From Kushneria pakistanensis (GTDB taxonomy: Bacteria; Pseudomonadota; Gammaproteobacteria; Pseudomonadales; Halomonadaceae), in contig NZ_BMZM01000006.1 of the NCBI RefSeq assembly GCF_014652795.1, positions 1 to 36,554 on the forward strand: DNA of 36,554 nucleotides. The letters are read 5' to 3'. Below are positions 1,714-36,177 of the stretch, one piece after another (within the stretch, counting starts at the first letter, position 1; every line of letters begins with the position of its first letter). The position numbers and the translations under genes are program-made. The notes beneath the pieces were generated by a model. It saw nothing but the letters and a program-made list of their open reading frames with translations. It made no database searches and was not told the DNA's origin.

Positions 1714-1738
1714 GATGGCCTCCTGAAATATGAAATAT

Positions 1739-1762
1739 TGAAAGCATGAAAACATGCTTTCA
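1739..1762. repeat. Inverted repeat, par site 1
   Basis: TGAAAGCATG and CATGCTTTCA flank an AAAA loop, placed in the gap between parA and the RHH gene. It belongs to the dispersed CATGAAAGCATG family and is a possible centromere or operator. Confidence 0.65.
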
Positions 1763-1767
1763 TTACA

Positions 1768-2567: not shown

Positions 2568-2822
2568 TCAGGCGCTGCCTGTTGCGAGCCGGGAACACTC
2601 GTTGTCGAGCGTCTGTAACTGCCGAGTCAGCATCGAAGCAAGGGCAGCGATATGCTGCAGATCATCCGGACTAGCTTCACCATCATCCAGCGCTCGTGAG
2701 GCCAGTGATTCGATGCCGGCAGCAGTGGCCTGAGACTGAATGTTCTGTACGTGGATGCGTCGACGATCGCAGAGCGAGAGGGGCAGGGCGGTAGCGACGG
2801 ATGCGGCTTGATGGTCAGGCAT
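2568..2822 (-). CDS. Hypothetical protein, 84 aa, paralogue of the 4672-4959 product
   Basis: Unknown protein of 84 residues, mostly helical. Its C-terminal half (GIESLASRALDDGEASPDDL, then a helix ending LTRQLQTLDNE) matches the C-terminal half of the 95-residue product at 4672-4959, which reads GLEAITERALDSGEELSGQD and then a similar helix. The two are probably paralogues. The start at 2822 follows GGGGGA at very short spacing; a longer upstream extension is Pro/Gly-rich and looks non-coding. The gene points leftward toward parA, with repeat sites in between. No function is recognised. Confidence 0.6.
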   Translation of the reverse strand: MPDHQAASVATALPLSLCDRRRIHVQNIQSQATAAGIESLASRALDDGEASPDDLQHIAALASMLTRQLQTLDNECSRLATGSA

Positions 2823-3210
2823 GATTCCCCCAGGCAGACGGGGCTCGCCATATGGTGGCGAACCGTGCACGGGTAGCAGACCGGGAGAGATACCGAAACC
2901 CGGCGCGCCCGTGGGCGCCCCGCACACGGCCGCCTCAGCTCAACGGCGGCGCGCAAGTAGGCGCGGCGCGCGATGATGGGCTCGTGCGTCGGTATCTCTG
3001 TTCGGGCTGCTAATCCCGGCCGCTAATGTGTAGCGGCATGGGAAAGGTACGCGCAGGGGAGTGGGGCGTCAACGAAGGCCAGGCGGCAAACAGAGACACT
3101 AAGCGTGCTTAACTCGTTGAATGGTGGATAATAATTTAGCGGTAACGGATTGTTACAAAGGAAGGGAAAACATGCTTTATTGAAAGCATGTTTTCAGGGG
3201 TGGGAGGCCA
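2823..3210. other. Structured G+C-rich intergenic region
   Basis: No gene is seen in these 388 bases. They hold an 11-bp inverted repeat (AGAGATACCGA at 2886-2896, TCGGTATCTCT at 2989-2999) enclosing 92 very G+C-rich bases, a 7-bp stem-loop GCCGCTA/TAGCGGC at 3019-3037, a more A+T-rich patch at 3120-3165, and par-type repeat 4 at its right end. It could be a structured RNA, a replication or transfer site, or the promoter region of the gene on its left. Confidence 0.5.
3166..3195. repeat. Inverted repeat, par site 4
   Basis: Perfect 13-bp arms GAAAACATGCTTT and AAAGCATGTTTTC around ATTG. This is the most perfect inverted member of the dispersed repeat family apart from site 6. Confidence 0.7.
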
Positions 3211-3911: not shown

Positions 3912-4241
3912 TTAAAACGGGCATGTGCCGTCGGGTGCGTAGAGTTCCTGAAAATCGTCAATGTCGGGGATTGGTTCGACGTAGTGCAGGCAGCCCCGGC
4001 TACCGCGTCGATGCGGCCATGGCTTATGGCCAGGTCTTTCCAGTGCTTGCCCATCGCAATGGCAGGTCTGGTATCGCCAGCCCTTCCGATCGGCCCACTG
4101 ATCAATGCGCAGGGTTCCGGTTTGCCCGCATCGGCGGCAGCGGGGCGGCCGGGTGTATTCGTCCGGCGCTTTCTCTTTCACCTGCCGCGCACCGCAGGCG
4201 CGGCAACGGCAGTAACGGCGACGGTAGATGCGGGCGATCAT
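3912..4241 (-). CDS. Cysteine-rich zinc-ribbon-like phage protein, 109 aa
   Basis: A small basic protein with paired cysteines: Cys11, Cys13 and Cys16 (CRCRACG), Cys35 and Cys38 (CRRCG), Cys60 and Cys62 (CHC), then a WPHRRGSRGC segment ending at Cys84. This arrangement suggests two zinc knuckles and is typical of small phage DNA- or RNA-associated proteins of unknown function. The frame extends further upstream, but the start at 4241 overlaps the stop of the preceding gene, the usual sign of translational coupling in this operon. The first residues MIARIYRRRY are strongly basic. Role inferred only as nucleic-acid binding. Confidence 0.65.
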   Translation of the reverse strand: MIARIYRRRYCRCRACGARQVKEKAPDEYTRPPRCRRCGQTGTLRIDQWADRKGWRYQTCHCDGQALERPGHKPWPHRRGSRGCLHYVEPIPDIDDFQELYAPDGTCPF

Positions 4242-4675
4242 CACGCGTACCTCATCATGACGCTGTCGATATCCGGCAGATCTCCCCCGCCGTTTGTGTT
4301 GTCGCGGCGGATGCGAGTGATACGGGCGGATGACACCGGGGTGCGGCTGCGCTGGGGTACGCGTGTGGCGCTCATGTGGTCTACAAAGCCAGCACCGCCG
4401 GAGGCGATGGCCAGTATCAAACACAGCGCCCGAGGTGCCAGAACGTTCAGAACGAATGCGCGGGCGATCATGTGCGACTTTGAACGGGCGCCGAGTTTGG
4501 CTGTGATGTTCGACTCAATCTGGCGCATCTCGACGCGAGTGATGTTCAGCGCCTGCTCGATCTCGCTGGGCTTGCGACCATCAGCCAGCCATGTCAGCAC
4601 CAGCTGCTCGTCGGGCAGCAGGTTTTGTCCAGGCAGGCCGATGACGTCATCACCGGTCAGGCGTGCATCACTCAT
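4241..4675 (-). CDS. LuxR/GerE-type HTH protein with hydrophobic segment
   Basis: A 144-residue protein with a LuxR-type helix-turn-helix at about residues 19-75. It begins LLPDEQLVLTWLADGRKPSE, has the recognition helix around TRVEMRQIESNI, and then AKLGARSKSHMIARA, which is the usual end of the GerE fold. A hydrophobic stretch follows (about 73-97, including ALCLILAIASGGAGF), then a basic, disordered tail. There is no autoinducer-binding or receiver domain, so it is a stand-alone HTH, possibly membrane-associated. It overlaps its neighbours by 4 bases (ATGA) upstream and by its stop codon downstream. It is likely an early regulator made when the operator at 4991 is free. Confidence 0.75.
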   Translation of the reverse strand: MSDARLTGDDVIGLPGQNLLPDEQLVLTWLADGRKPSEIEQALNITRVEMRQIESNITAKLGARSKSHMIARAFVLNVLAPRALCLILAIASGGAGFVDHMSATRVPQRSRTPVSSARITRIRRDNTNGGGDLPDIDSVMMRYA

Positions 4676-4959
4676 GACTGCGCCCCCTGTGTCAGATGGC
4701 CGACCAGCCCTTCGATTTCCTGATGATGATCATCAATGCGGTTTTTCAGTAGCCCGAGCGCGACACAAAGGTCGCCAAGATCCTGACCGGACAGCTCTTC
4801 GCCGCTATCCAATGCCCGCTCGGTGATCGCTTCGAGCCCGGAGGCGATCGCGCGAGTCTCTTTAAGCATCCCGCAGAGCTGGCGGGTGCCACGGATCAGG
4901 CAGGTCTGTGTTGTGGTGGCCGGCGTCAGCTGGCTGATGGGGGTGATGGCGTTTGACAT
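4672..4959 (-). CDS. Hypothetical helical protein, 95 aa, first gene of leftward early operon
   Basis: Unknown helical protein of 95 residues with a Thr/Gln-rich N-terminus. Its C-terminal part resembles that of the 2568-2822 product (shared pattern G-x-E-x5-RALD-x-GE, then a Leu-rich helix). The start at 4959 has a strong AAGGAG at 7 bases. The perfect phage operator TGACACAAAATGTGTCA lies 31 bases upstream, so this gene heads an operon directly controlled by the repressor. The following LuxR-HTH gene overlaps its stop codon. Confidence 0.65.
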   Translation of the reverse strand: MSNAITPISQLTPATTTQTCLIRGTRQLCGMLKETRAIASGLEAITERALDSGEELSGQDLGDLCVALGLLKNRIDDHHQEIEGLVGHLTQGAQS

Positions 4960-4990: not shown

Positions 4991-5007
4991 TGACACAAAA
5001 TGTGTCA
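4991..5007. promoter_or_regulatory. Phage repressor operator (leftward early operon)
   Basis: TGACACAAAATGTGTCA has perfect 7-bp arms (TGACACA/TGTGTCA). It lies between the repressor terminator and the first gene of the leftward operon. It matches the sites at 5760, 5825 and 32852 closely and is the best consensus copy. Confidence 0.8.
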
Positions 5008-5063: not shown

Positions 5064-5702
5064 TTAACGGTCGTGTGCGATGCGTGCAACCCGGCCGATG
5101 ATGCGGATATTCCCGATGTCCGGCGTTTGCCATGGGTCGCCGCGTTCGGCTTTAACCGTGGCGCTGCCGTCCGGATGACGCTCTATCCAACGGATCACGG
5201 CCTGATTGTCGATCAGGATGGCGTAAAGGTCCGTGCCTGTTGGCGTCTGCTGGCTGCGATCGATCAGCGCTTCATCGCCCTGGGCGAAAATGCCGGGCAT
5301 GGCGTCATCGCCGGTATTGCGTATCGACAGGCACTGCGGATCTTTCAAACCGCGTCGGTTTAGATAGTCGATGCTGTAGGCGGTATCGCTGGCGGCGTTA
5401 TCAACGCGAGCGCTACCAGCGTTCGTTGCGATCGTGTGGCGCGCCGCAGTGATATAGCGCCCGCTGACCGCAACACTGTTCTGCCGATCATCGGACCAGC
5501 CCACAATCCATGCCGGTGATACACCGAGACGATCGGCGACCATCGCGATCTCGTCCAGCTTGGGCGAGCGAAACCCCACTTCCCAATTGGCATAACGCCC
5601 GCGTGAGAGCTGAAGAAACTCAGACATCTCCTGCTGGGTCATGTCGTGTTCGCTGCGCAGCTGAGCCAGCCGGCCGGCGATGACATCGGTGGTTGTTGAC
5701 AT
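5064..5702 (-). CDS. Prophage repressor, XRE HTH plus S24-like domain without catalytic dyad
   Basis: A 212-residue CI-type repressor. Residues 8-68 form an XRE helix-turn-helix (MTQQEMSEFLQLSRGRYANW). Residues about 125-212 form a LexA/CI-type S24 domain. In that domain the expected G-D-S-M-x-P motif reads GDDAMPG, so the nucleophile Ser is Ala134, and the general-base Lys position in AVIRWIER appears to be Arg171. An Ala-Gly pair (residues 95-96) remains in the linker. Self-cleavage is therefore unlikely. The start at 5702 has GAGGAAG 5-6 bases upstream; a frame extending to 5747 lacks this. It is transcribed divergently from a Cro-like gene across two operators and should hold the lytic genes off. 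Confidence 0.88.
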   Translation of the reverse strand: MSTTTDVIAGRLAQLRSEHDMTQQEMSEFLQLSRGRYANWEVGFRSPKLDEIAMVADRLGVSPAWIVGWSDDRQNSVAVSGRYITAARHTIATNAGSARVDNAASDTAYSIDYLNRRGLKDPQCLSIRNTGDDAMPGIFAQGDEALIDRSQQTPTGTDLYAILIDNQAVIRWIERHPDGSATVKAERGDPWQTPDIGNIRIIGRVARIAHDR

Positions 5703-5759
5703 GGGCTTCCTCGATTTTTCGTCGGACGCTGTCAATATCGGCGCCATTTTGAGTCTAGT

Positions 5760-5776
5760 TTACACAAAATGTGTCA
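5760..5776. promoter_or_regulatory. Phage operator, repressor-proximal
   Basis: TTACACAAAATGTGTCA differs from the palindromic consensus at 4991 by one base. It lies in the 118-base gap between the divergent repressor and Cro-like genes and probably covers the leftward repressor promoter (TTGACA is read on the minus strand at its edge). Confidence 0.78.
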
Positions 5777-5795: not shown

Positions 5796-5825
5796 TTGCA
5801 GATACGGCTGTTCAGGCATTATGCT
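5796..5825 (+). promoter_or_regulatory. Possible rightward early promoter
   Basis: TTGCAG (5796-5801) and TATGCT (5820-5825) are separated by 18 bases. The -10 abuts the operator at 5825-5841, as expected for a repressible PR. If correct, transcription starts near 5832. Confidence 0.4.
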
Positions 5826-6069
5826 GTCACAAAACGTGACAACGGATAATGAAGACGTGACATTTCGCGAATGGGTCGACAACTCTGGCGGCATTGAGCA
5901 GGCGGCAGCCCTGCTGGGTGAAAAGCCGCGCACTGTTCGCAGCTGGTACGAGTGTCGTCGCCGGCCGCGATCTGAAAGCGCAGAGAAAATCATCAGGATC
6001 AGCGGTCATCAGGTCGACTATGCGGGCCTTTATGGCCCGGTCGAGGCGCTAAAGGAGCCTGCCCGATGA
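5821..6069 (+). CDS. Cro-like / CII-like small HTH regulator
   Basis: An 82-residue protein whose core (TFREWVDNSGGIEQAAALLG, then KPRTVRSWYECRRRP) is a short helix-turn-helix typical of phage Cro proteins. It is transcribed divergently from the repressor and heads the rightward early operon, so it should compete for the same operators. The ATG at 5821 has a weak CAGG before it. A GTG at 5857 would give 70 residues and is needed if the promoter at 5796-5825 is right, because the operator would then sit at the transcription start. The last codons overlap the ATG of the next gene (ATGA). Confidence 0.75.
   Translation: MLSQNVTTDNEDVTFREWVDNSGGIEQAAALLGEKPRTVRSWYECRRRPRSESAEKIIRISGHQVDYAGLYGPVEALKEPAR
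5825..5841. promoter_or_regulatory. Phage operator, Cro-proximal
   Basis: TGTCACAAAACGTGACA, arms TGTCAC/GTGACA. It matches the repressor-proximal site in spacing and inner A tract, and it overlaps the start of the Cro-like open frame. Confidence 0.75.
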
Positions 6070-7840: not shown

Positions 7841-8013
7841 GCGTTAACCGCGTGTTTCGCGTGGAGGTGGTCATGGTGGAGACCGGCGAGGTGCGCGGCT
7901 TCTACATGGTTTCCAGTTCGATCAGCACGCTGGAGGAAGCGCACGAACGCGCGGCATTGCAGTTTGGTCCCGGCCGGGTGCTGGGCGTAAAGAAAGCAAG
8001 TATGAAAACATGA
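7837..8013 (+). CDS. Small hypothetical protein, 58 aa
   Basis: A 58-codon frame starting with GTG and overlapping the stop of the Q-like gene. It has a beta-hairpin-like N-terminus (RVFRVEVVMVETGEVRGFYM), then a helix with EEAHERAALQFG and a short end VLGVKKASMKT. The composition is that of a real small phage protein. Its last codons run into the tandem repeat of par-type units (8002-8041), so part of the repeat array is translated. No function is known. Confidence 0.6.
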   Translation: MSVNRVFRVEVVMVETGEVRGFYMVSSSISTLEEAHERAALQFGPGRVLGVKKASMKT

Positions 8014-8041
8014 AAGCATGAAAGCATGAAAGCATGAAAGC
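8002..8041. repeat. Five tandem 8-bp repeats, par site 5
   Basis: Five head-to-tail units, ATGAAAAC once and ATGAAAGC four times, share the core of the inverted par-type sites. The array begins inside the end of the 58-residue gene. It is a direct-repeat (iteron-like) version of the dispersed family. Confidence 0.8.
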
Positions 8042-8107
8042 AGGCAGGGGCTAAACCGCGCGCCAACGCGCCCTGTCACTGACGAAACCGACACGAGAGG
8101 TAGCCTC

Positions 8108-16993: not shown

Positions 16994-18367
16994 ATGAGCT
17001 TTTACGCCTTGCAGTATCTGGCCGGGCAGCAGTGGGCGCTGCAACCCAGCGTGCTGGAGGACATGGCCGCGATCGCCCGGCGCGATGGCCCCAGCGGCAT
17101 CGAAGCGGTGCTCAAGCGCGACGGCCTGCCCGTCAACGGCACCCGCTCGGTGGTCAATCGCGACGGTGTCGCGGTGATCCCTGTCACCGGTGTGATCTCG
17201 CGCTATGCGTCGATGTTCACCGATGTCTGTGGTGGCGCGACCGTTCAGCGACTCTCGACCGAGATCACCACCGCGCTGGAAGACAAGCAGATCAAGGCGT
17301 TGGTGCTGGAGATCGACTCGCCCGGCGGGCAGGTCACCGGCATCAACGAGCTGGCGGATCAGATCCACGCCGCACGCGGAACCAAGCCGATCATTGCCTA
17401 TGGCGGCGGCAACGTGGCGTCCGGTGCCTACTGGCTGGCCAGCGCCTGCGACGAGATCGTGGTGGATGACACCGCGCAGGTCGGGTCGATCGGTGTGGTG
17501 GCCACCTACCGCATCGTGAAAGACACCGACCAGATCCAGACCATCGAGCTGGTATCGAGCCGATCCAAAAACAAGCGCCCCGACATGACCAGCGCCGAGG
17601 GTCAGGCCAAGGCCATGGAGTCTGTCGACGCCATGGCGGATGTCTTCATCGGCCGTGTGGCGCGCAATCGCGGCATCACCGCCGATGACGTGGTCACCGG
17701 CGGCGACAGCGGCGGCCTGCGGGTTGGTCAGCAGGCCGTTGATGCCGGGCTGGCGGATCGTCTGGGCAGTCTCGAAGGCGTCATTGCCGAGCTTTCCCGG
17801 GGAAACACCACCACGGGCCGTGCGGCCCATCGAGCAACGAAAGAGGACAAAACCATGTGTCTGACCATTGAGCAGGGCGCCACGGCCGAAGCCGTCGCCG
17901 AGTCGCTGAAAGCGCAGCACCCGGAGGCGTACAACGCGATTACTCAGCAGGGCGTTGACCAGGCCAAGGCCGAGCAGGCCGGCGCGATCGAGCAGGCAAA
18001 ACTGGAAGGCTACGCCGAGGGGCATGCCGCCGAGACTGCCCGTGTGGCGGCAGTATTCGAGCAGTCCATGCCGGGCCATGAAGCGCTGATCCAGTCGCTG
18101 GCCATCGACGGTAAGACCGATGGCAACGCCGCCGCAGCGCAGGTGCTGGCGGCAGAGCGCGGCAGCATGTCGGACTATCTCCAAAGTGCCGGGCAGTCCG
18201 AGGCCAACGGTGTAAAGGACGTCGCCTCTAAAGACGGCGGCAAAACAACCATCAATTCCAAACAGGTCGGCAACGACGCTCGGGCACTGGTTCGTGAAGC
18301 CGCTGCCCGGGGCGAGAAGCTGTCCTATTCCGCTGCCGTTCGTCAGATCACAGGAGCTGCGAAATGA
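16994..18367 (+). CDS. S49 head-maturation protease with fused scaffold
   Basis: A 457-residue protein. Residues about 50-270 are a SppA/S49-type serine protease, with VLEIDSPGGQVTG, then AYGGGNVASGAYWLASACDE where Ser143 is the predicted nucleophile, then VGSIGVVATYRIVKD. The C-terminal third (about 288-457) is Ala/Glu/Gln-rich and helical, as expected for a scaffold. This is the lambda C/Nu3 arrangement. A separate start for the scaffold alone is seen at 17855. It should cleave scaffold and portal or capsid termini during prohead maturation. Confidence 0.92.
   Translation: MSFYALQYLAGQQWALQPSVLEDMAAIARRDGPSGIEAVLKRDGLPVNGTRSVVNRDGVAVIPVTGVISRYASMFTDVCGGATVQRLSTEITTALEDKQIKALVLEIDSPGGQVTGINELADQIHAARGTKPIIAYGGGNVASGAYWLASACDEIVVDDTAQVGSIGVVATYRIVKDTDQIQTIELVSSRSKNKRPDMTSAEGQAKAMESVDAMADVFIGRVARNRGITADDVVTGGDSGGLRVGQQAVDAGLADRLGSLEGVIAELSRGNTTTGRAAHRATKEDKTMCLTIEQGATAEAVAESLKAQHPEAYNAITQQGVDQAKAEQAGAIEQAKLEGYAEGHAAETARVAAVFEQSMPGHEALIQSLAIDGKTDGNAAAAQVLAAERGSMSDYLQSAGQSEANGVKDVASKDGGKTTINSKQVGNDARALVREAAARGEKLSYSAAVRQITGAAK
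17855..18367 (+). CDS. Internal in-frame scaffold protein, Nu3-like
   Basis: In frame with the protease, an ATG at codon 288 (MCLTIEQGATAEAVAESLKA) has AGAGGAC 6-10 bases upstream. It would give a 170-residue protein that is Ala/Glu/Gln-rich, helical and without protease motifs. In lambda, the scaffold Nu3 is made in this way from within gene C. The sequence just before this ATG (TTTGRAAHRATKEDKT) looks like a linker between protease and scaffold. The separate product is inferred from the ribosome site and precedent. Confidence 0.7.
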   Translation: MCLTIEQGATAEAVAESLKAQHPEAYNAITQQGVDQAKAEQAGAIEQAKLEGYAEGHAAETARVAAVFEQSMPGHEALIQSLAIDGKTDGNAAAAQVLAAERGSMSDYLQSAGQSEANGVKDVASKDGGKTTINSKQVGNDARALVREAAARGEKLSYSAAVRQITGAAK

Positions 18368-18756
18368 AACCAACGTTCATCAAGGGCTATCGAGCCACCG
18401 CGGCCATCGCGCCGCATCGATTCATCACATACGGCGATGAGCCCGGTGTGGCCGCGCAGGCCAGCGGCCCCGAACAGACGCTGATGGGCGTCTCGGACTC
18501 GCTGGGCGCGAAAGCCGGCGAGCTGGCGGACGTGATCCGGGCTGGTATCAGCGAGGTCGAGTTTGCCGACGACATCACCGTGGGGGATCGATTGACCACC
18601 GACGGCGACGGCCGCGCCGTAGTTGCGGCATCGGGTCAGCCCTACCGCGCGATCGCCGAGCACGATGGCGACGAAGGGGTCATCGGTCATGTCTGGCTAG
18701 AGGCGGGCGTTGTGCCGGGCGATCCGGTCGCCACCGACACCACCACGGGGGCCTGA
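18364..18756 (+). CDS. Head decoration protein, DUF2190-like
   Basis: A 130-residue beta-rich protein (MKPTFIKGYRATAAIAPHRF, later ITVGDRLTTDGDGRAVVAAS and GVIGHVWLEAGVVPGDPVAT). This is the DUF2190/capsid-stabilising type often found between protease and major capsid genes, where lambda has gpD. It probably forms trimers on the capsid surface. It overlaps the protease stop by 4 bases and is followed by a G+C hairpin (18746-18766) before the capsid gene. Confidence 0.75.
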   Translation: MKPTFIKGYRATAAIAPHRFITYGDEPGVAAQASGPEQTLMGVSDSLGAKAGELADVIRAGISEVEFADDITVGDRLTTDGDGRAVVAASGQPYRAIAEHDGDEGVIGHVWLEAGVVPGDPVATDTTTGA

Positions 18757-25097: not shown

Positions 25098-25699
25098 TGA
25101 TGCTGTTTAGTGCGTCAGAAGGTGTTTTTTATGATCCCGCGCATGAAGCGTCGTACCGCGAAGCAGGCAACTGGCCGTCTGATTTAATTGCAGTCACTGC
25201 TGAGGTGTTCGAGCAATACGGGCGTGCGGGGGCGGCGGTAGGCAAGCGGCTGTCGAGTGGGCGTGATGGTCAGCCTTGTTGGATCGATATTGAGCCTGAG
25301 TCGCCCGAAACCCGTCGCGATGGGGCGATCAACTGGATCGACGCCACCGCCGACCGCATCCGCGCGGCTGACCGCTCGGTCGGCCAGTATCTCGACGCGG
25401 AGTATCAGATCGTCGCCGAGGCTTTGGTCGCCTACCGCAACGACCCCGATGGCGAAGTGCCCGAAGCGGTGCAGAGCTACGCCGACGCCGAGGGCCTGAC
25501 CGTAAAGGCTGCGGCTGAGCAGATCGCCGAGGCCGCCGCGCGAGCTGTCGAGCTGCTGCAAACCGTGCGCCGCGTTCGTCTCGCCGGCAAGGCGGCCGTG
25601 CGCGATGCCACTGACGACGCCGACATGCTCGAAGTCGCCCAGCCATACATCAACGAGCTGGAAGCGCTGGCCAAGCCGGCTGAACCTGCCGAGCTGTAA
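25094..25699 (+). CDS. Tail fibre assembly chaperone
   Basis: A 201-residue protein of the Caudo_TAP (tail fibre assembly) type. It has LFSASEGVFYDPAHEASYRE and WPSDLIAVTAEVFEQYG, a short conserved segment with DGQPCWIDIEPES, then a long helical Ala/Glu-rich C-terminus. It directly follows the fibre gene and would assist its folding. The first part is A+T-richer like the fibre tip, and the second half is G+C-rich like the rest of the phage. The hand-over near position 25320 suggests the fibre tip and the chaperone N-terminus were exchanged together. Confidence 0.85.
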   Translation: MMMLFSASEGVFYDPAHEASYREAGNWPSDLIAVTAEVFEQYGRAGAAVGKRLSSGRDGQPCWIDIEPESPETRRDGAINWIDATADRIRAADRSVGQYLDAEYQIVAEALVAYRNDPDGEVPEAVQSYADAEGLTVKAAAEQIAEAAARAVELLQTVRRVRLAGKAAVRDATDDADMLEVAQPYINELEALAKPAEPAEL

Positions 25700-25790
25700 C
25701 GGCGTGTTTTACAACGTCCACCGCTAACGCCTCAACTTGTCGTGACAACATTGTAAAGGGCAGCCGAATCCACCGGAGAGGTTGCCAACA

Positions 25791-25895
25791 ATGCGACACA
25801 TCGAACGACTGCACATCATCATTGAAACACTGGCCACACTGATCGACCTGCTGACCCAGCTGGCCGATTACTGGCACCTGCTGCCCTTGCAGTAA
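25791..25895 (+). CDS. Leucine-rich miniprotein, 34 aa
   Basis: A 34-codon frame with a good ribosome site (GGAGAGG about 9 bases before ATG), starting MRHIERLHIIIETLATLIDL and ending in a Leu-rich, aromatic tail (LADYWHLLPLQ). Hydrophobic residues fall on one face of a single amphipathic helix. It lies alone between the chaperone gene and a strong terminator, so it looks like a complete small cistron. It could be a membrane-active or regulatory peptide. No homologue comes to mind. Confidence 0.5.
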   Translation: MRHIERLHIIIETLATLIDLLTQLADYWHLLPLQ

Positions 25896-25903
25896 CCCAC
25901 ACG

Positions 25904-25926
25904 ACCCGCCGCTGGCGGGTTTTTTT
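25904..25926 (+). terminator. Terminator before the sheath gene
   Basis: ACCCGCC-GCT-GGCGGGT followed by seven T residues. The sequence after it (TTTATGCCTGT, then a GGAGC) is repeated almost exactly after the terminator in front of the holin gene at 10926-10950. Confidence 0.82.
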
Positions 25927-25948
25927 ATGCCTGTATGGAGCGCCTGAC

Positions 25949-27091
25949 ATGGCTGGAGACTATTTGCACGGCGTCGAGCATTTCTGGCTCGACAACAACG
26001 ACAAGCCGATCGAGATTCTGGCGGCATCGACGATCGGGCTGGTGGCCACAGCCGATGATGCCGACGCGGCCACCTTCCCGCTGGATACGCCCACGCTGGT
26101 CAACAGCGACAAGCTGCTGGCCAAGGCCGGCGAGCAGGGCACGCTGAAATGGGCGCTTAAGGATATCTATGCCCAGACCGGCGCCGTGGTCGTGGTCGTG
26201 CGTGTGGCGTCAGACGCCGACGACGCGCAGGAGATGGCCAACGTGATCGGCAGCGTCGATGACGAGACCGGCAAGTACACCGGCATGCAGGCGATGCTGG
26301 CAGCCGAGACCCTGCTGGGTGTGCGCCCGCGCCTGATTCTGGCCCCGGACTACTCGCAGCGCGACGAGGTGCGCCCGGCGATGGAAACGCTGGGCAAGAA
26401 GCTGCGCGCCATCCCGATCATCGACGGCAGCGAAAGCGGCTATTCGGCGGTGATCAACGAAGCCCAGGCACTCGACGAGGTGTTTTTCGTCAACGGTGGC
26501 GTGAAGGTGTTTGATGCGGATCTGGCCGAGAGCGTCGGCCGCTGGATGTCGCCGACCATCGCTGGCCACATCGTGCGCGTCGACAACGAGGAGGGCTACT
26601 GGAACAGCCCGTCGAGCCGGAAGATCTACAACATTCAGGGTTCGCGCGAGGTCATCGACCACGCCATCGGTTCCACGACCAGCAAGGCCAATCTGTACAA
26701 CAGCAACAACGTGTCCGTGATCGCCGGCATGCAGGGCGGCCAGTACCTGTACGGCAACCGGCTGTGCAACGGCACCATGCTGCCCCATCAGCGCATCCGC
26801 TACATCGTGGGCGATTCGATCATGGTGGCGCATCAGGAGATGGTCGATCGCAACATCACGAAGGCGTATGTCGACGGCGTCATCAAACGGGTCAACAAGC
26901 TGCTGCGCCGGCTCAAGCTGCGCGGCGTCATCCGTGACGGGGAAGTGTGGGTCGACAAGGAGCTGAACGAGGCATCGACCGGTACCGGTCAGGTCTATGT
27001 CGATTATTCACTCGGGTTTTACGACATCGCCGAGCGCCTGACTTTCAGGCAGCACGTGATGACCGAGTTCAACGAATCCATTTTCGCATAA
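25949..27091 (+). CDS. FI: Tail sheath protein FI
   Basis: A 380-residue contractile sheath protein. It has EHFWLDNNDKPIEILAASTI and later LIIDG-type strands (actual: LRAIPIIDGSESGYSAVINE). The conserved C-terminal domain includes VYVDYSLGFYDIAERLTFRQ and NESIFA. The N-terminal segment around GLVATADDADAATFPLDTPT is typical of P2 FI. Many copies form the outer tube that shortens during injection. GGAGC lies 8 bases before the start, behind the terminator at 25904. Confidence 0.93.
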   Translation: MAGDYLHGVEHFWLDNNDKPIEILAASTIGLVATADDADAATFPLDTPTLVNSDKLLAKAGEQGTLKWALKDIYAQTGAVVVVVRVASDADDAQEMANVIGSVDDETGKYTGMQAMLAAETLLGVRPRLILAPDYSQRDEVRPAMETLGKKLRAIPIIDGSESGYSAVINEAQALDEVFFVNGGVKVFDADLAESVGRWMSPTIAGHIVRVDNEEGYWNSPSSRKIYNIQGSREVIDHAIGSTTSKANLYNSNNVSVIAGMQGGQYLYGNRLCNGTMLPHQRIRYIVGDSIMVAHQEMVDRNITKAYVDGVIKRVNKLLRRLKLRGVIRDGEVWVDKELNEASTGTGQVYVDYSLGFYDIAERLTFRQHVMTEFNESIFA

Positions 27092-27104
27092 GGGCGGGTG
27101 AATC

Positions 27105-27614
27105 ATGGCAAAAATGCCGAGTGTCCTGGTGGACATTAATTGCTTTTTCAAGGACGAGTCGTTCGCGGGGCTGGCCAACACCATGACCCTGCCCAAGATC
27201 GCGACCAAGATGATCGACGTGGCGATGGCGGGCGTGGCCGGCGACATTGCGCGCGACACGGGCCGGCTGGAAAAGCTGGAATGCGAGGTGACCATCTCGC
27301 ACTATGCCAGCCGTGTGATCGGGCTGGTTGGTGATCGGGAAAGCCGCGAGGAGGTATTCATCGCGCGCGGGGCCGTCGACGTCGACGGGGTGATCAAGAC
27401 CGTGGTGGTGCGTCAGCAGGGATTCTGGCGCGAGGTCGAGTTCAACGAATGGGCGCCTGAGAAGGAGTCGACCACCAAGTTTGCCATCGATGTCGAGATG
27501 TTCGAGTTCGAGCTGGACGGCAAGGAGATCATCCACATCGACAAGCTGGCCAACATTTACCGTGTCAACGGCAAGGACCGTAACGAGGCGATCCGCACCG
27601 CGCTGGCGCAGTAA
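27105..27614 (+). CDS. FII: Tail tube protein FII
   Basis: A 169-residue tail tube protein of the P2 FII family (MPSVLVDINCFFKDESFAGL, then TLPKIATKMIDVAMAGVAGD, then KLECEVTISHY and a C-terminal FELDGKEIIHIDKLANIYRV). It forms the inner tube. It lies 13 bases after FI and is followed by a terminator, so FI and FII form one highly expressed unit. Confidence 0.93.
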   Translation: MAKMPSVLVDINCFFKDESFAGLANTMTLPKIATKMIDVAMAGVAGDIARDTGRLEKLECEVTISHYASRVIGLVGDRESREEVFIARGAVDVDGVIKTVVVRQQGFWREVEFNEWAPEKESTTKFAIDVEMFEFELDGKEIIHIDKLANIYRVNGKDRNEAIRTALAQ

Positions 27615-31518: not shown

Positions 31519-32499
31519 ATGAAACAGGCGGCATACATGGTCCTGGCCAACGGTGTCGACATCACGGCGAAGATCCGCGACCGGCTGATATCGCTGCGTG
31601 TGCATGATGCGGCCGGTATCGATTCGGATACGGTCACGATCGAGCTGGATAATCGGGATGATGCCATCGCCCTGCCGCCGACCGGGGCCGCGCTGCGGGT
31701 CTGGATTGGGCCGGATGACGGCCTGACGTTCAAGGGCGTTTATGAGGTCGACGAACTGGAGGAGCCACTGGACGATCAGGCGCTGGTGATTCATGCGAAA
31801 GCCGCAAAGATGACCAGCGCGTTCAAGGCCCCGCGCGATCGGACTTATGACGATATCACCCTAGGGGATCTGGTCGGCCAGATTGCAAAGTCCAACGGCT
31901 ATGAATCGGCCGTTTCGGAGGCGCTGGCGGGGGTGCTGTTTGAGCATATCGACCAGCGCGGCGAGTCGGATATGTCACTGCTGACGCGTCTGGCAAAGGA
32001 CCGGGACGCGGTGTTCAAGCCCGTCGCCGACCGGCTGGTGATCGTGCCCAAGGCCGAGGCCAAAAGCGTCAGCGGCAAGGATCTTCCCGACGTCACAATC
32101 ACTGATGCGGCCAACAGTTCCGGGCGCGTGACGATCACCGAGCACAACGACTATCAGTCCGTGGTCGCGTACTGGTTCGACGAGGACGCCCAGGAGCGTG
32201 TCGCGGTAACGATCGGCGCAGGTGAGCCGGTATTTACCATGCGGCAGAACCACAAGAGCGAGGACGCGGCACAGAAGGCCGCCGAGTCAAAGCTGGGAAC
32301 GCTACAGCGGGGCACTGCCTCACTGAGCCTGACGCGGCCGCTGTCGCCGCAGATCATGGCCGAGGGCCACATCGTGTTGTCCGGTCACAAGGCCAGCGCC
32401 AATCGGCGGTGGCTGGTCGAGACCGCCGAGCACGTTATCGAAAGCGGGTCGGTGTCCTACACGACGGTGTCGTGTGTGACGCCGAAAAAGGAGGAATGA
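31519..32499 (+). CDS. D: Tail protein D (late control-type, baseplate hub)
   Basis: A 326-residue protein of the Phage_GPD family, the P2 gpD baseplate hub related to T4 gp27. It has an N-terminal ITAKIRDRLISLRVHDAAGI, then a DSDTVTIELDNRDDAIALPP beta segment. Later segments read YDDITLGDLVGQIAKSNGYE and GESDMSLLTRLAKDRDAVFK, followed by GHIVLSGHKASANRRWLVET. Together with V it forms the central spike complex. It is the last gene of the late operon that begins at the holin gene. Confidence 0.92.
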   Translation: MKQAAYMVLANGVDITAKIRDRLISLRVHDAAGIDSDTVTIELDNRDDAIALPPTGAALRVWIGPDDGLTFKGVYEVDELEEPLDDQALVIHAKAAKMTSAFKAPRDRTYDDITLGDLVGQIAKSNGYESAVSEALAGVLFEHIDQRGESDMSLLTRLAKDRDAVFKPVADRLVIVPKAEAKSVSGKDLPDVTITDAANSSGRVTITEHNDYQSVVAYWFDEDAQERVAVTIGAGEPVFTMRQNHKSEDAAQKAAESKLGTLQRGTASLSLTRPLSPQIMAEGHIVLSGHKASANRRWLVETAEHVIESGSVSYTTVSCVTPKKEE

Positions 32500-32640
32500 T
32501 TATAGAGACAGATCAAAAAAGCATTAACGAAACACGATGTAACAAATGCATAAGGTACTGTTTAAATGTACAGTATGGATAATTCAGGTTAAGACCAGCG
32601 CCCCGATAGAGGGCAGGTAAGCGACGGGAGGTTTTGGTAG

Positions 32641-32874
32641 ATGATGGCAGGCAGCACCCAGGTCCACGGGAAAAACCCTTTAGTGGGATCGAGCGCGCGT
32701 GATACTCTCGCTGGAATCGATGACCAGCTCGCATATCTCATCGGTTGTGACGATCGAGACCATCCCGGGTTCGCTCACGGACTGATGATGGTTAAAAATG
32801 CAGTACCGATAGCGGCCGAGCAAAAGCGCTTGGAGCAACAAGAAAAAATGTTGTCACAAAACGTGTCAAAATAG
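32641..32874 (+). CDS. Hypothetical protein, 77 aa
   Basis: A 77-codon frame with GGGAGGT 9 bases before the ATG. It has a charged, mostly polar sequence (STQVHGKNPLVGSSARDTLA, then a helix with EQKRLEQQEKMLSQ). It ends over the operator at 32852-32868, so its 3' end overlaps the rep control region. It lies alone between the late operon and the replication module. No family is recognised; it is plausible but unproven. Confidence 0.5.
   Translation: MMAGSTQVHGKNPLVGSSARDTLAGIDDQLAYLIGCDDRDHPGFAHGLMMVKNAVPIAAEQKRLEQQEKMLSQNVSK
32852..32868. promoter_or_regulatory. Phage operator at the rep promoter
   Basis: TGTCACAAAACGTGTCA combines the left half of the Cro-proximal site with a right half close to the consensus. 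It overlaps the -35 of the predicted rep promoter, which suggests that the phage repressor or Cro controls plasmid replication. Confidence 0.7.
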
Positions 32875-32891
32875 AATTGAAGTGATATGCT
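32863..32891 (+). promoter_or_regulatory. Predicted rep mRNA promoter
   Basis: GTGTCA and TATGCT with 17-bp spacing, overlapping the operator. The predicted start is near 32898, giving a leader of about 190 bases that contains the hairpin and the counter-transcribed region. Confidence 0.5.
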
Positions 32892-32949
32892 GGTGGTCAT
32901 TCGACATCGCAGAGCGCGATGATAGGTAAGGAATTCAACAATTTAGATA

Positions 32950-33021
32950 ATGGCTGCACAAAAAGAAACCGCCGGGGCGCCAACCCCAGCGGTTTCGGAT
33001 GTTCGTTCAGCAGGTCACTGA
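32950..33021 (+). CDS. Possible leader peptide, 23 aa
   Basis: A short frame (MAAQKETAGAPTPAVSDVRS and three more residues) runs across the hairpin that is the target of the counter-transcript. Leader peptides whose translation opens or closes rep mRNA structure are known for IncFII and IncI-type plasmids. The ribosome site is weak. A second short frame at 33052-33132 overlaps the rep start and is an alternative. Confidence 0.3.
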   Translation: MAAQKETAGAPTPAVSDVRSAGH

Positions 33022-33031
33022 CGAAATCGAC
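32958..33031 (-). ncRNA. Counter-transcribed copy-control RNA (CopA/Inc-like)
   Basis: A minus-strand RNA of about 75 bases is predicted. It starts near 33031 from the promoter at 33038-33066 and ends at a hairpin followed by five T residues. The terminal stem is GAAACCGC/GCGGTTTC plus CCCC/GGGG with one internal mismatch (32965-32996). In this RNA the six-base loop reads UUGGCG, which contains a YUNR U-turn motif. It lies fully inside the leader of the rep mRNA. This is the arrangement of the antisense RNAs that set the copy number of IncFII, IncI and IncB plasmids. Confidence 0.75.
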
Positions 33032-33037
33032 AAATTC

Positions 33038-33066
33038 AGTGTACCTGCTGCATGAGCCTTGGGCAA
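33038..33066 (-). promoter_or_regulatory. Promoter of the counter-transcribed RNA
   Basis: Read leftward, TTGCCC (33061-33066) and TACACT (33038-33043) are 17 bases apart, each with four of six consensus bases. The predicted transcript ends at the terminator hairpin about 75 bases on. Confidence 0.6.
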
Positions 33067-33085
33067 GCCGTCAAGGCGTTTTTGC

Positions 33086-34054
33086 ATGGAATCAGCAGGT
33101 ATGCTGCAGGGCTTCCCCCTGCGCTGGGGTAAATCCCCGTATAAGCACCCCGGGCGCTTTTTGGGTACCGGTAATCGTTGTGGCCACAATCCTGAAAAGG
33201 GCGAGGCCGACCGATTCCAGGCCCCTACGTCGCGGCGCTTGTCCCGCACTCATCAGCAGTTGCTTGATGCCGCCGCCGACTATTACTGGTCGCCGACGAT
33301 CCTTCCTACGCTTTCAAACCTGAATGGCCGTGCCAAGACTGATGGTGACCCGCGCTGCAATCGCAGTGAGGGGCGTGCTGCCGAGTCGCTGGTGCTGCGC
33401 GCCATCATCCAATGCATCGACTTTGCGTCCATGCGCGTGGGCACGCCCAGGGCCGACGGCAGCTTCATCCCGCGATCATGCGGTTATCTGGCCAAGCTGG
33501 CGGGTCTGATGGCCCCGGGCTGTGATCCTGACTACCCGCAGCCCTCGCAGCGCTTTGTGCGCGCATGGCGGCGGCTCAAGCTGGCGGGCGCATTCACCGT
33601 GCATCGTGTTGCCGAGACGCTGGCTGATGGTCGCGTGCGCGCCCGTCCGGCTATCAAGCACGTCAATATGGACTTTCTGGTGTCCATGGCGCGCGTGGGA
33701 TATCAAGCGCTCAAGGATCTGCGCACGTGGGCCAGCAACAAGCTCAAAAAGGCGAAGAAGAAGCACCGCGAGCAGTTTCCTGCCGAGACTGACGCAGAAA
33801 AGGCCCGTCGTAATCTGGTGGCAGGCAAAGCGGCCGGCGGTGGCGTTCGATCGCTACTGCCCAAGAAGCGCCGAGGCGTAAAAGACATTGCCGACGCCGA
33901 CCCGGAGAAGGAAAAGCAGCGGCACTATAGCCAGGCGCGCAATGCACGCTTTGTCGAGATAGTGGCCAACAACCCGAACGCCACGGCGGCACAGATCCGG
34001 CAGTTGCTCGATATAGAATTCCCGCCGTATCACGAGCGCCGACAGCTGCAATAA
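33086..34054 (+). CDS. repA: Plasmid replication initiator, IncFII RepA-like
   Basis: A 322-residue basic protein. A winged-helix-like core (about residues 80-190) includes VLRAIIQCIDFASMRVGTPR, SFIPRSCGYLAKLAGLM, FVRAWRRLKLAGAFTVHRVA and VNMDFLVSMARVGYQALKDL. It is followed by a Lys/Arg-rich segment (KLKKAKKKHREQF) and the end EKQRHYSQARNARF, which resembles the C-terminus of IncFII RepA (SRNRNYSRL). With the antisense RNA upstream and an origin-like region downstream, this is the element's replication initiator. The start is uncertain: ATG 33086 has AAGG upstream; ATG 33101 and TTG 33059 are alternatives. Translation is likely limited by leader structure. Confidence 0.78.
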   Translation: MESAGMLQGFPLRWGKSPYKHPGRFLGTGNRCGHNPEKGEADRFQAPTSRRLSRTHQQLLDAAADYYWSPTILPTLSNLNGRAKTDGDPRCNRSEGRAAESLVLRAIIQCIDFASMRVGTPRADGSFIPRSCGYLAKLAGLMAPGCDPDYPQPSQRFVRAWRRLKLAGAFTVHRVAETLADGRVRARPAIKHVNMDFLVSMARVGYQALKDLRTWASNKLKKAKKKHREQFPAETDAEKARRNLVAGKAAGGGVRSLLPKKRRGVKDIADADPEKEKQRHYSQARNARFVEIVANNPNATAAQIRQLLDIEFPPYHERRQLQ

Positions 34055-35408: not shown

Positions 35409-35440
35409 AACATGAAAGCATGTTTTCATGCTTTCATGTT
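35409..35440. repeat. Inverted repeat, par site 6
   Basis: Perfect 14-bp arms AACATGAAAGCATG and CATGCTTTCATGTT around TTTT, between the convergent lipoprotein and hicB genes. It is the most complete copy of the par-type repeat. Confidence 0.72.
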
Positions 35441-35451
35441 GTGAGGCAGGA

Positions 35452-35877
35452 TCAGGCGACAGCAACATCCAAGAGGATGCGGCGGCCCAGTACGTTGAGC
35501 GCCCGCTCGACGTTTTCCAGTTTCGAATGATGGAGCAGATCCACCAGGCGACCGGCAGCGGCGGCGCTAATACCGAGCTGTTGGGCGAGATTTGAGCGCG
35601 TCACGCCCTGATCACACATGGCGTTCCACAGTGCGATTTTGGCCATGGTCAGTGCCGGTAGATAAACTCCAGCGCCATCCGGTGCCCGATCGGGCACTGG
35701 CACCTTTTTACCCTGGTCGACGTAGATAGATAGCGCGGCAATCATCGCGTCTTCTGCCTCGTTATTCAGCAGATCCGCAACGTCATCACCGGCACAGTTA
35801 AACGGTGGCACCAGCGGGCTGGACGCCCAGACGCTGGGGTCTACGTCAGTGTGTATATCGATCGGATATGCGTGCAT
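35452..35877 (-). CDS. hicB: HicB antitoxin
   Basis: A 141-residue HicB-type antitoxin. The N-terminal half (MHAYPIDIHTDVDPSVWASS, then AGDDVADLLNNEAEDAMIAA) has the partial RNase H-like fold that covers the HicA active site. The C-terminal part has a helix-turn-helix (RSNLAQQLGISAAAAGRLVD) for binding its own promoter. I place the start at 35877, the first Met fitting the fold; the frame extends to 35934. It lies 53 bases downstream of hicA in the same direction. Confidence 0.88.
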   Translation of the reverse strand: MHAYPIDIHTDVDPSVWASSPLVPPFNCAGDDVADLLNNEAEDAMIAALSIYVDQGKKVPVPDRAPDGAGVYLPALTMAKIALWNAMCDQGVTRSNLAQQLGISAAAAGRLVDLLHHSKLENVERALNVLGRRILLDVAVA

Positions 35878-35930
35878 TTTGCCTCCGTGGCGACGTGTAC
35901 AGCGTGTCAGGCGTGAAATACAAGGGGCTT

Positions 35931-36107
35931 TCACAGCCCCAGGTCCTTGATGATTTTCTTTCTCAGGGGCTCTTTTATCTCTTTCGAGCCGTGGTAAGGG
36001 ACGATGGTGGTGTTTTCACCGTGGGTCACCTTGAAGTGGCTCCCCTTGCCCTTTTCTATCGTGACCCCCTGAGCCTTGAGCCATCTCCAGAATTCACTGT
36101 ATTTCAT
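35931..36107 (-). CDS. hicA: HicA mRNA interferase toxin
   Basis: A 58-residue HicA toxin (MKYSEFWRWLKAQGVTIEKG, then SHFKVTHGENTTIVPYHGSK, then EIKEPLRKKIIKDLGL). The dsRNA-binding-like fold and the catalytic His in GSHFKV match the family, as does the EIKEPLR-x-IIKDLGL end. It would cleave mRNA when HicB is lost, stabilising the element after segregation failure. The start at 36107 matches the usual HicA length; the longer frame to 36167 would run into the operator. A long palindrome lies upstream. Confidence 0.9.
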   Translation of the reverse strand: MKYSEFWRWLKAQGVTIEKGKGSHFKVTHGENTTIVPYHGSKEIKEPLRKKIIKDLGL

Positions 36108-36140
36108 CGCCCTCCCTCGTTGATTCGATAAAGTCATTGT

Positions 36141-36177
36141 ATAAACAAAAGTGTTTAAAGTAAACACTTTTGTTTAT
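36141..36177. promoter_or_regulatory. HicAB operator, long palindrome
   Basis: Perfect inverted repeat with 17-bp arms around AAG (each arm contains TAAACAAAAGTGTTTA or its complement), 34 bases before the hicA start. It is probably the autoregulatory HicB binding site covering the promoter. Confidence 0.8.

Follow-up and report, generated by a model that had tools for sequence, protein, structure and literature searches.

A predicted repressor operator at the probable rep promoter of a phage-plasmid and its probable role in linking dormancy to copy number

Introduction

Control of a plasmid replication gene by a phage repressor has been described in N15 and phiKO2. The N15 repressor CB binds operators that overlap the predicted repA promoter and lowers both repA transcription and copy number, and the phiKO2 CB binds sites corresponding to those at the N15 repA (PMC4997575). 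The principle is therefore not new. The N15 repressor is without self-cleavage features and its antirepressor is under SOS control (PMC10432266, PMC3121763, PMC11652158). Non-cleaved repressors paired with small LexA-controlled antirepressors are a known arrangement, N15 included (PMC3121763).

The locus described here is like those of N15 and phiKO2 in that predicted repressor operators are found both at the immunity switch and upstream of a plasmid repA (PMC4997575). However, there is one operator at rep, used as a candidate -35, where N15 and phiKO2 have two; the gene order differs; immediately upstream of rep stands a LexA-box gene whose last codons contain the operator; an antisense-type hairpin is present in the rep leader; and natural co-divergence of the operators is seen. 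A protelomerase (PF16684) was sought and gave no match in the host genome (0/1) or in relatives (0/8). The circuit would work like that of N15, but the element is not a telomere phage of the N15 type.

Tum of phage 186, AntC of N15 and GfoA/GftA of the Gifsy phages are likewise encoded by small LexA-box genes outside the immunity region, and they act in systems whose repressor lacks the usual cleavage residues (PMC3121763). The small gene of the present locus, a putative antirepressor, differs in having no sequence relation to them in family scans and in its place at rep, where its coding end doubles as an operator. Small proteins encoded near a plasmid-prophage repA are also known from the TF-smORF modules and from Qtip of VP882, which inactivate the phage repressor; the TF-smORF modules, first found between repA and telN, are SOS-independent (PMC10432266), whereas the small gene studied here is upstream of rep and preceded by a LexA box. 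Among the open PMC matches listed, titles and the starts of abstracts gave no description of this rep-operator/small-gene locus.

Results

The element and its replication gene

The window, that is, the whole stretch of 36,554 nucleotides that was analysed, is an entire contig, one of 10 in a 3.5 Mb genome. A hairpin with flanking A and T runs, seen by eye, bridges the junction between its end and its start. Because the ends look contiguous, the window was treated as circular, and it is probably a phage-plasmid of about 36.5 kb whose host belongs to the halomonad family. The family name follows from two genomes of the same family, whose matches score exactly as those of the Salinicola loci L046 and L047. 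It encodes ParA, a tyrosine recombinase, and lysis, terminase, portal, capsid, sheath, tape-measure and gpD-type tail proteins, so that virion genes stand alongside plasmid replication and partition genes, the combination by which phage-plasmids are recognised. The replication gene is as follows.

33086-34054, plus strand: repA, many relatives of which are named plasmid replication protein repA (phrog_20951)

The reading frame is open from a TTG at 33059, and the likely start, chosen by eye, is the ATG at 33086. The Rep protein matched no Pfam family (E<=0.01) and no NCBIfam family (E<=0.1), and a structure search returned no match at E<=0.001.

The immunity region

5064-5747, minus strand: cI repressor, with a helix-turn-helix (HTH) and an S24-like domain in which the usual Ser/Lys pair is absent (DDAM, IRWI)
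5821-6069, plus strand: cro-like gene, 82 aa (the family scan was done on a longer ORF from 5680)
5760-5776, plus strand: predicted immunity operator between cI and cro, a sequence match with a counterpart in Salinicola
5825-5841, plus strand: predicted immunity operator at the cro start, the same letters encoding the beginning of cro (MLSQNV), with a counterpart in Salinicola
4991-5007, plus strand: predicted fourth operator, preceding the minus-strand ORFs 4672-4959 and 4241-4675

The CI protein of the window has Ala in place of the catalytic Ser and Arg in place of the catalytic Lys, at positions assigned from the LexA/CI motifs, since the alignments to known proteins span only the HTH part. 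Arg takes the place of the catalytic Lys in every one of the 38 CI sequences that were aligned, a set with some redundancy. The Ser is retained in 28 of 37 and replaced in 9, therefore the loss of cleavage would rest on the Lys in most members. Judged from these protease residues, self-cleavage of CI is unlikely to be the inducing event.

The predicted operator at rep

32852-32868, plus strand: predicted CI-type operator at the rep promoter, TGTCACAAAACGTGTCA (17/17), which also encodes LSQNVS near the end of the small ORF described below

The first-pass annotation had described this site as a close match to the operators of the immunity switch, which is confirmed. When compared with the three sites near cI (4991, 5760 and 5825), it differs from 5825-5841 by a single mismatch, while the next-best places in the window (560, 4971 and 10805) have three, and the best match in 300 Markov-shuffled windows never fell below three. 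At up to three mismatches from the rep site, the window contains five matches compared with a mean of 0.02 in 100 shuffles, and the rest of the 3.5 Mb host genome contains one more, at three mismatches. A looser half-site pattern, TGACAC-N5-GTGTCA with up to three mismatches, was not above chance (16 matches, 13.6 expected).

The rep site is identical in two Salinicola phage-plasmids, each of which has exactly four matches at up to three mismatches: one at the rep promoter, two at cI-cro and one beyond cI. Four of the five window matches, 4991, 5760, 5825 and 32852, look real. The earlier count of five operators thus holds for the four conserved in Salinicola but not for the fifth, 10805, which has no counterpart among the Salinicola matches and is probably a chance occurrence. 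A sixth candidate, at 560, also lacks a counterpart there and was set aside.

The probable rep promoter

32863-32891, plus strand: probable rep promoter, read from the sequence, with a layout conserved across relatives

By eye, the promoter consists of a -35 hexamer GTGTCA (32863-32868), a 17-nt spacer and TATGCT (32886-32891), which forms part of an extended -10, TGaTATGCT, with the TG at 32883-32884. The right half of the operator doubles as the candidate -35. A scan of 32480-33200 for the sigma-70 consensus found no promoter, each of the rep hexamers matching at 4/6 positions, and the promoter claim therefore rests on conservation. The layout of an operator half, 16-18 nt and an extended -10, a pattern defined after the sequences had been read, scores in 15 of the 22 cluster representatives, where 0.11 would be expected from shuffles, and fails in the other 7. 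It also scores in 30/43 loci, a count that leaves out L028 and nineteen named loci (13 redundant or nearly so and 6 plasmid controls), and in 0/6 ordinary plasmids. In the Aeromonas members the operator appears, by eye, to lie over the -10 and not the -35. The recurrence among the representatives supports the proposal made in the first-pass annotation that the site overlaps the -35 of a likely rep promoter.

Co-divergence of the operators

Relatives of Rep were gathered from plasmids, phages, viral contigs and genomes, and the pairing of each rep-upstream region with the cI region of the same element was tested in 36 loci (21 clusters) that have both. The set leaves out Rep loci below 150 bits (L052-L056, L058-L077, L101-L107), copies of the window (L001, L098, L108), loci whose cI region was not available, L028, which has a short upstream stretch, and L049, in which cI is cut. 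The rep zone matched its own cI-cro region better than shuffled pairings did, with 0/20,000 permutations as high and an own-pair excess of 1.36 matches per cluster (Wilcoxon p=6e-5). The best own match lay between -300 and -225 of rep, a zone chosen after the best-match positions had been inspected, in 13/21 clusters by tie majority (p=3e-9 vs uniform) and in 18/21 if any tie is counted, both against an expectation of 9%. It was outside the zone in 3/21 clusters (L012, L020 and L038), and five ambiguous clusters (L017, L018, L026, L036 and L057) had less than half of their ties inside. Foreign cI regions scored above the own region in, for example, 7/20 comparisons for L012, 6/20 for L017 and 4/20 for L015, and the rep zone of L026 matched the cI region of another lineage at 17/17 compared with 13/17 for its own.

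The operators vary by lineage, being ATCACAGATAGTGGAAA in Pseudomonas phage PARCL1pr, TAACACAGTTCGTGTCA in the Halomonas qaidamensis plasmid and TAAACACTTTTAGTGTA in L016; the best own 17-mers of the rep and cI regions agree at 17/17, 14/17 and 16/17 positions, respectively. These comparisons support the conclusion that the pairing of a lineage's own operator with its own rep persists across lineages better than chance, and they make a chance origin of the rep site unlikely. The co-divergence also supplies a ready test set of natural operator/repressor pairs.

Six ordinary plasmids with a homologous RepA, picked from the top of the list among 171 matching records (two A. caviae, one A. media, one A. 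veronii, one Aeromonas sp. and one P. antarctica), served as controls. Against the 22 phage cI regions their rep zones scored no better than background (means 11.95-12.45 and maxima 13-14 of 17), and the phage own pairs average 14.2 of 17. Because the six plasmids show background only, the operator appears to have been added by the phage to a plasmid replicon. No match to the small ORF was found in the six. At least three of them (L110, L112 and L114) show a hairpin leader on inspection by eye. LexA-like boxes occur upstream of rep in 3/6, with exact half-sites in L110 and one mismatch in L109 and L114. The palindromes of L110 and L114, at about -540 to -570 from rep, precede small ORFs without a profile match, and these ordinary Aeromonas plasmids suggest that an SOS input near rep may be more general.

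The LexA box and the small ORF

32556-32575, plus strand: LexA-type box, TACTGTTTAAATGTACAGTA, 0 mismatches (0.24 matches expected at <=2 mismatches)
32641-32874, plus strand: small ORF, 77 aa, a proposed SOS-controlled antirepressor with a predicted two-helix hairpin

Nowhere else does the window come within two mismatches of TACTGT-N8-ACAGTA, and downstream of the box the small ORF has a plausible ribosome-binding site. Homologues of the ORF, detected with a profile built from five sequences, were found upstream of rep in 13/22 clusters. The LexA box is present in 13/13 of these clusters and in 0/9 of the others (Fisher p=2e-6), a count that leaves out six redundant or short loci and tallies the controls apart. 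All 13 include a locus in which the box has at most one half-site mismatch, a tolerance reached by 5.6% of shuffles, and in 9 it is exact; the single locus L014 has two half-site mismatches. The catalytic residues of CI showed no contrast between loci with and without the small ORF, the Lys being absent in both.

The small ORF behaves as a coding sequence, third-position changes being the most numerous in 11/11 close pairs, which were hand-picked. AlphaFold gave a confident two-helix hairpin (mean pLDDT 85). The model had no structural relatives at E<=0.001, and family scans that included known antirepressors gave no convincing match. The operator lies near the end of the ORF in the window and in Salinicola, and over its stop codon in several Aeromonas and Pseudomonas members. 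The ORF and operator occur together in records named Halomonas, Salinicola, Aeromonas, Edwardsiella, Pseudomonas and Delftia.

A search by CI instead of Rep returned 36 loci, 10 of them with a small-ORF match, of which three (L128, L142 and L148) are contigs already in the set. In six other related loci (L121, L123, L125, L136, L138 and L139), the cassette stands in front of a Rep without a match to the rep profile (E<=1e-3), and a seventh, L146, has a weak Rep match and is probably a V. parahaemolyticus plasmid. All seven have a site like their own operator within 20 nt of the small-ORF stop, at 13-15 of 17, scores that are near background for such a search, so that the position is what counts. 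By eye, each has a hairpin ahead of rep. Six of the seven have a LexA box with no more than one half-site mismatch, and the remaining one, L136, is cut off at the contig edge. This check is partly independent and adds about two lineages. The other 26 loci from the CI search gave no small-ORF match; the sequence of many may stop before rep.

The rep leader

32965-32996, minus strand: terminator-like hairpin with GGTTGGCGCC around the apex, probably the 3' end of an RNA antisense to the rep leader

RepA leaders of the IncFII/IncB/IncI type carry an antisense RNA, and the antisense RNA terminators of IncFII/IncI-type replicons resemble the hairpin found here. On the minus strand, 32996-32965 forms 14 pairs followed by TTTTT. 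The opposite-strand terminator hairpin and its TTGGCG-containing apex are shared with the IncFII/IncB/IncI leaders; the phage-type operator added at the promoter is not. In 11 leaders, hand-picked out of 20, the consensus stem has 7 pairs, 5 of which show double changes that keep the pair, although certain pairs are disrupted in part of the sequences and the folding energy is weak (-5.3 kcal/mol). The scan of 32480-33200 showed no promoter-like site for the antisense RNA. The RNA is a probable second brake on rep, derived from the plasmid replicon, and on account of this hairpin CI is argued not to be the sole control of copy number. The first-pass annotation of the operator mentions neither this hairpin nor the LexA box, the small ORF or the non-canonical protease residues of CI.

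Discussion

It is likely, in our judgement, that CI holds both the lytic switch and rep, and that a small SOS-induced protein disarms CI and thereby raises both. Starting from the elements observed, their conservation and the own-operator pairing, the proposed circuit would run from binding and repression through antirepression to a rise in copy number. In the lysogen, CI would occupy the lytic-switch sites at 5760 and 5825 as well as the site at 32852-32868, which covers the -35 of the probable rep promoter, and binding at the latter would keep rep transcription low. Upon DNA damage, LexA would leave the box at 32556-32575 and the 77-aa protein would be made, which would then disable CI. The cro gene, the ORFs behind 4991 and rep would rise together, and the increase in rep would give more plasmid copies as the lytic programme begins. 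Transcripts from the LexA-controlled promoter may also continue into rep. If the antisense brake exists, CI would set the amount of rep mRNA and the antisense RNA would correct the copy number, a correction that induction would overwhelm. The layout is kept by many relatives, each with a variant of the site that is its own, and a coupling of dormancy to copy number is therefore probable. If true, the circuit would explain how copy number stays compatible with immunity in a phage that has taken up a plasmid replicon; copy number would be raised at induction, and a single protein is predicted to serve both superinfection immunity and copy control.

We also considered whether the operator at rep serves chiefly Cro, or acts in long-range looping of the lambda OL kind to stabilise repression at cI-cro, control of rep then being secondary. 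CI-type and Cro-type proteins often share operators, and a single distant site could loop, the distance to cI-cro being about 9.5 kb on the circular map. However, the operator is found together with the promoter layout in most of the cluster representatives, and in phiKO2 it is CB, not Cro, that binds the repA operators (PMC4997575), which makes this explanation improbable. A match that arose by chance or as a relic, with no regulatory role, would be compatible with a site of 17 bp and with weak promoter hexamers, but the shuffled windows never approach the match, the site is identical in the two Salinicola phage-plasmids and the co-divergence test argues the same way, so that we regard it as most improbable.

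The identity of the small ORF is less firmly placed than control of rep by CI. An antirepressor of CI seems somewhat the better assignment, because CI is without the usual self-cleavage residues. The ORF may instead encode a factor for replication or host takeover that is induced by SOS and simply happens to sit at this locus, while CI represses rep. The lack of any convincing homology or fold match, antirepressors included, would fit such a factor, as would the fact that the ORF travels with rep. The nine clusters of 22 without a small-ORF match or LexA box point in the same direction, for those with a CI sequence are likewise non-canonical, with Arg for Lys; the small ORF cannot, therefore, be the general inducer, and those loci must have another. 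Nevertheless, the ORF is also found in front of a Rep missed by the rep profile and is therefore linked with the phage switch no less than with a single rep family, and its size and LexA control are like those of known antirepressors (PMC3121763). On balance a replication or takeover factor is rather unlikely, and assignment as an antirepressor is retained in the circuit proposed above.

A broader reading is put forward tentatively. The LexA box, the antirepressor gene, the CI operator and the rep promoter may form one compact cassette of about 350 bp that sets SOS response, immunity and copy number. It is conceivable, if somewhat doubtful, that such a cassette is used in several genera, also before an unrecognised Rep, and that its operator is re-tuned when repressor specificity changes. 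The antirepressor gene could then end inside the operator of the very repressor it disarms, a suggestion to be held with similar reserve.

Several other features of the element and its relatives were observed. C4 RNA is known from anti-immunity of the P1/N15 type, and an Rfam C4 antisense RNA lies at 2851-2940 on the minus strand of the window (54.3 bits). Among 22 other records searched, 7 have a C4 RNA and the remaining 15 gave none. Close relatives of the window or of the H. qaidamensis plasmid account for six of the carriers (W01, G001-G005), and the seventh is the whole Pseudomonas genome behind L057, with 25 matches. The ORF that follows the C4 RNA, 2568-2822 (minus strand), weakly resembles ORF 4672-4959 (minus strand), with 33% identity over 42 aa (E=1e-5); perhaps they encode paralogous early proteins, one under C4 and one under CI. 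In the H. qaidamensis phage-plasmid (L002), a C4 RNA at 17453-17541 is followed by a gene with an ORF6N domain (17592-18374), a domain that occurs in phage antirepressors. At 25638-27319 of the same element, a reverse transcriptase gene adjoins that of a protein annotated as a four-helix bundle, which is suggestive of a diversity-generating retroelement.

Repeats of the TGAAAGCATG/TGAAAACATG type are present in many copies around parA and elsewhere in the window (1731-1763, 2444-2546, 3168-3196, 7995-8051 and 35409-35440) and are perhaps partition (centromere) sites. The region 35452-36177 encodes a toxin-family protein (phrog_353), whose neighbour is weakly HicB-like (E=0.015, below the Pfam cut-off), and a perfect 17-nt inverted repeat at 36141-36177 covers the start.
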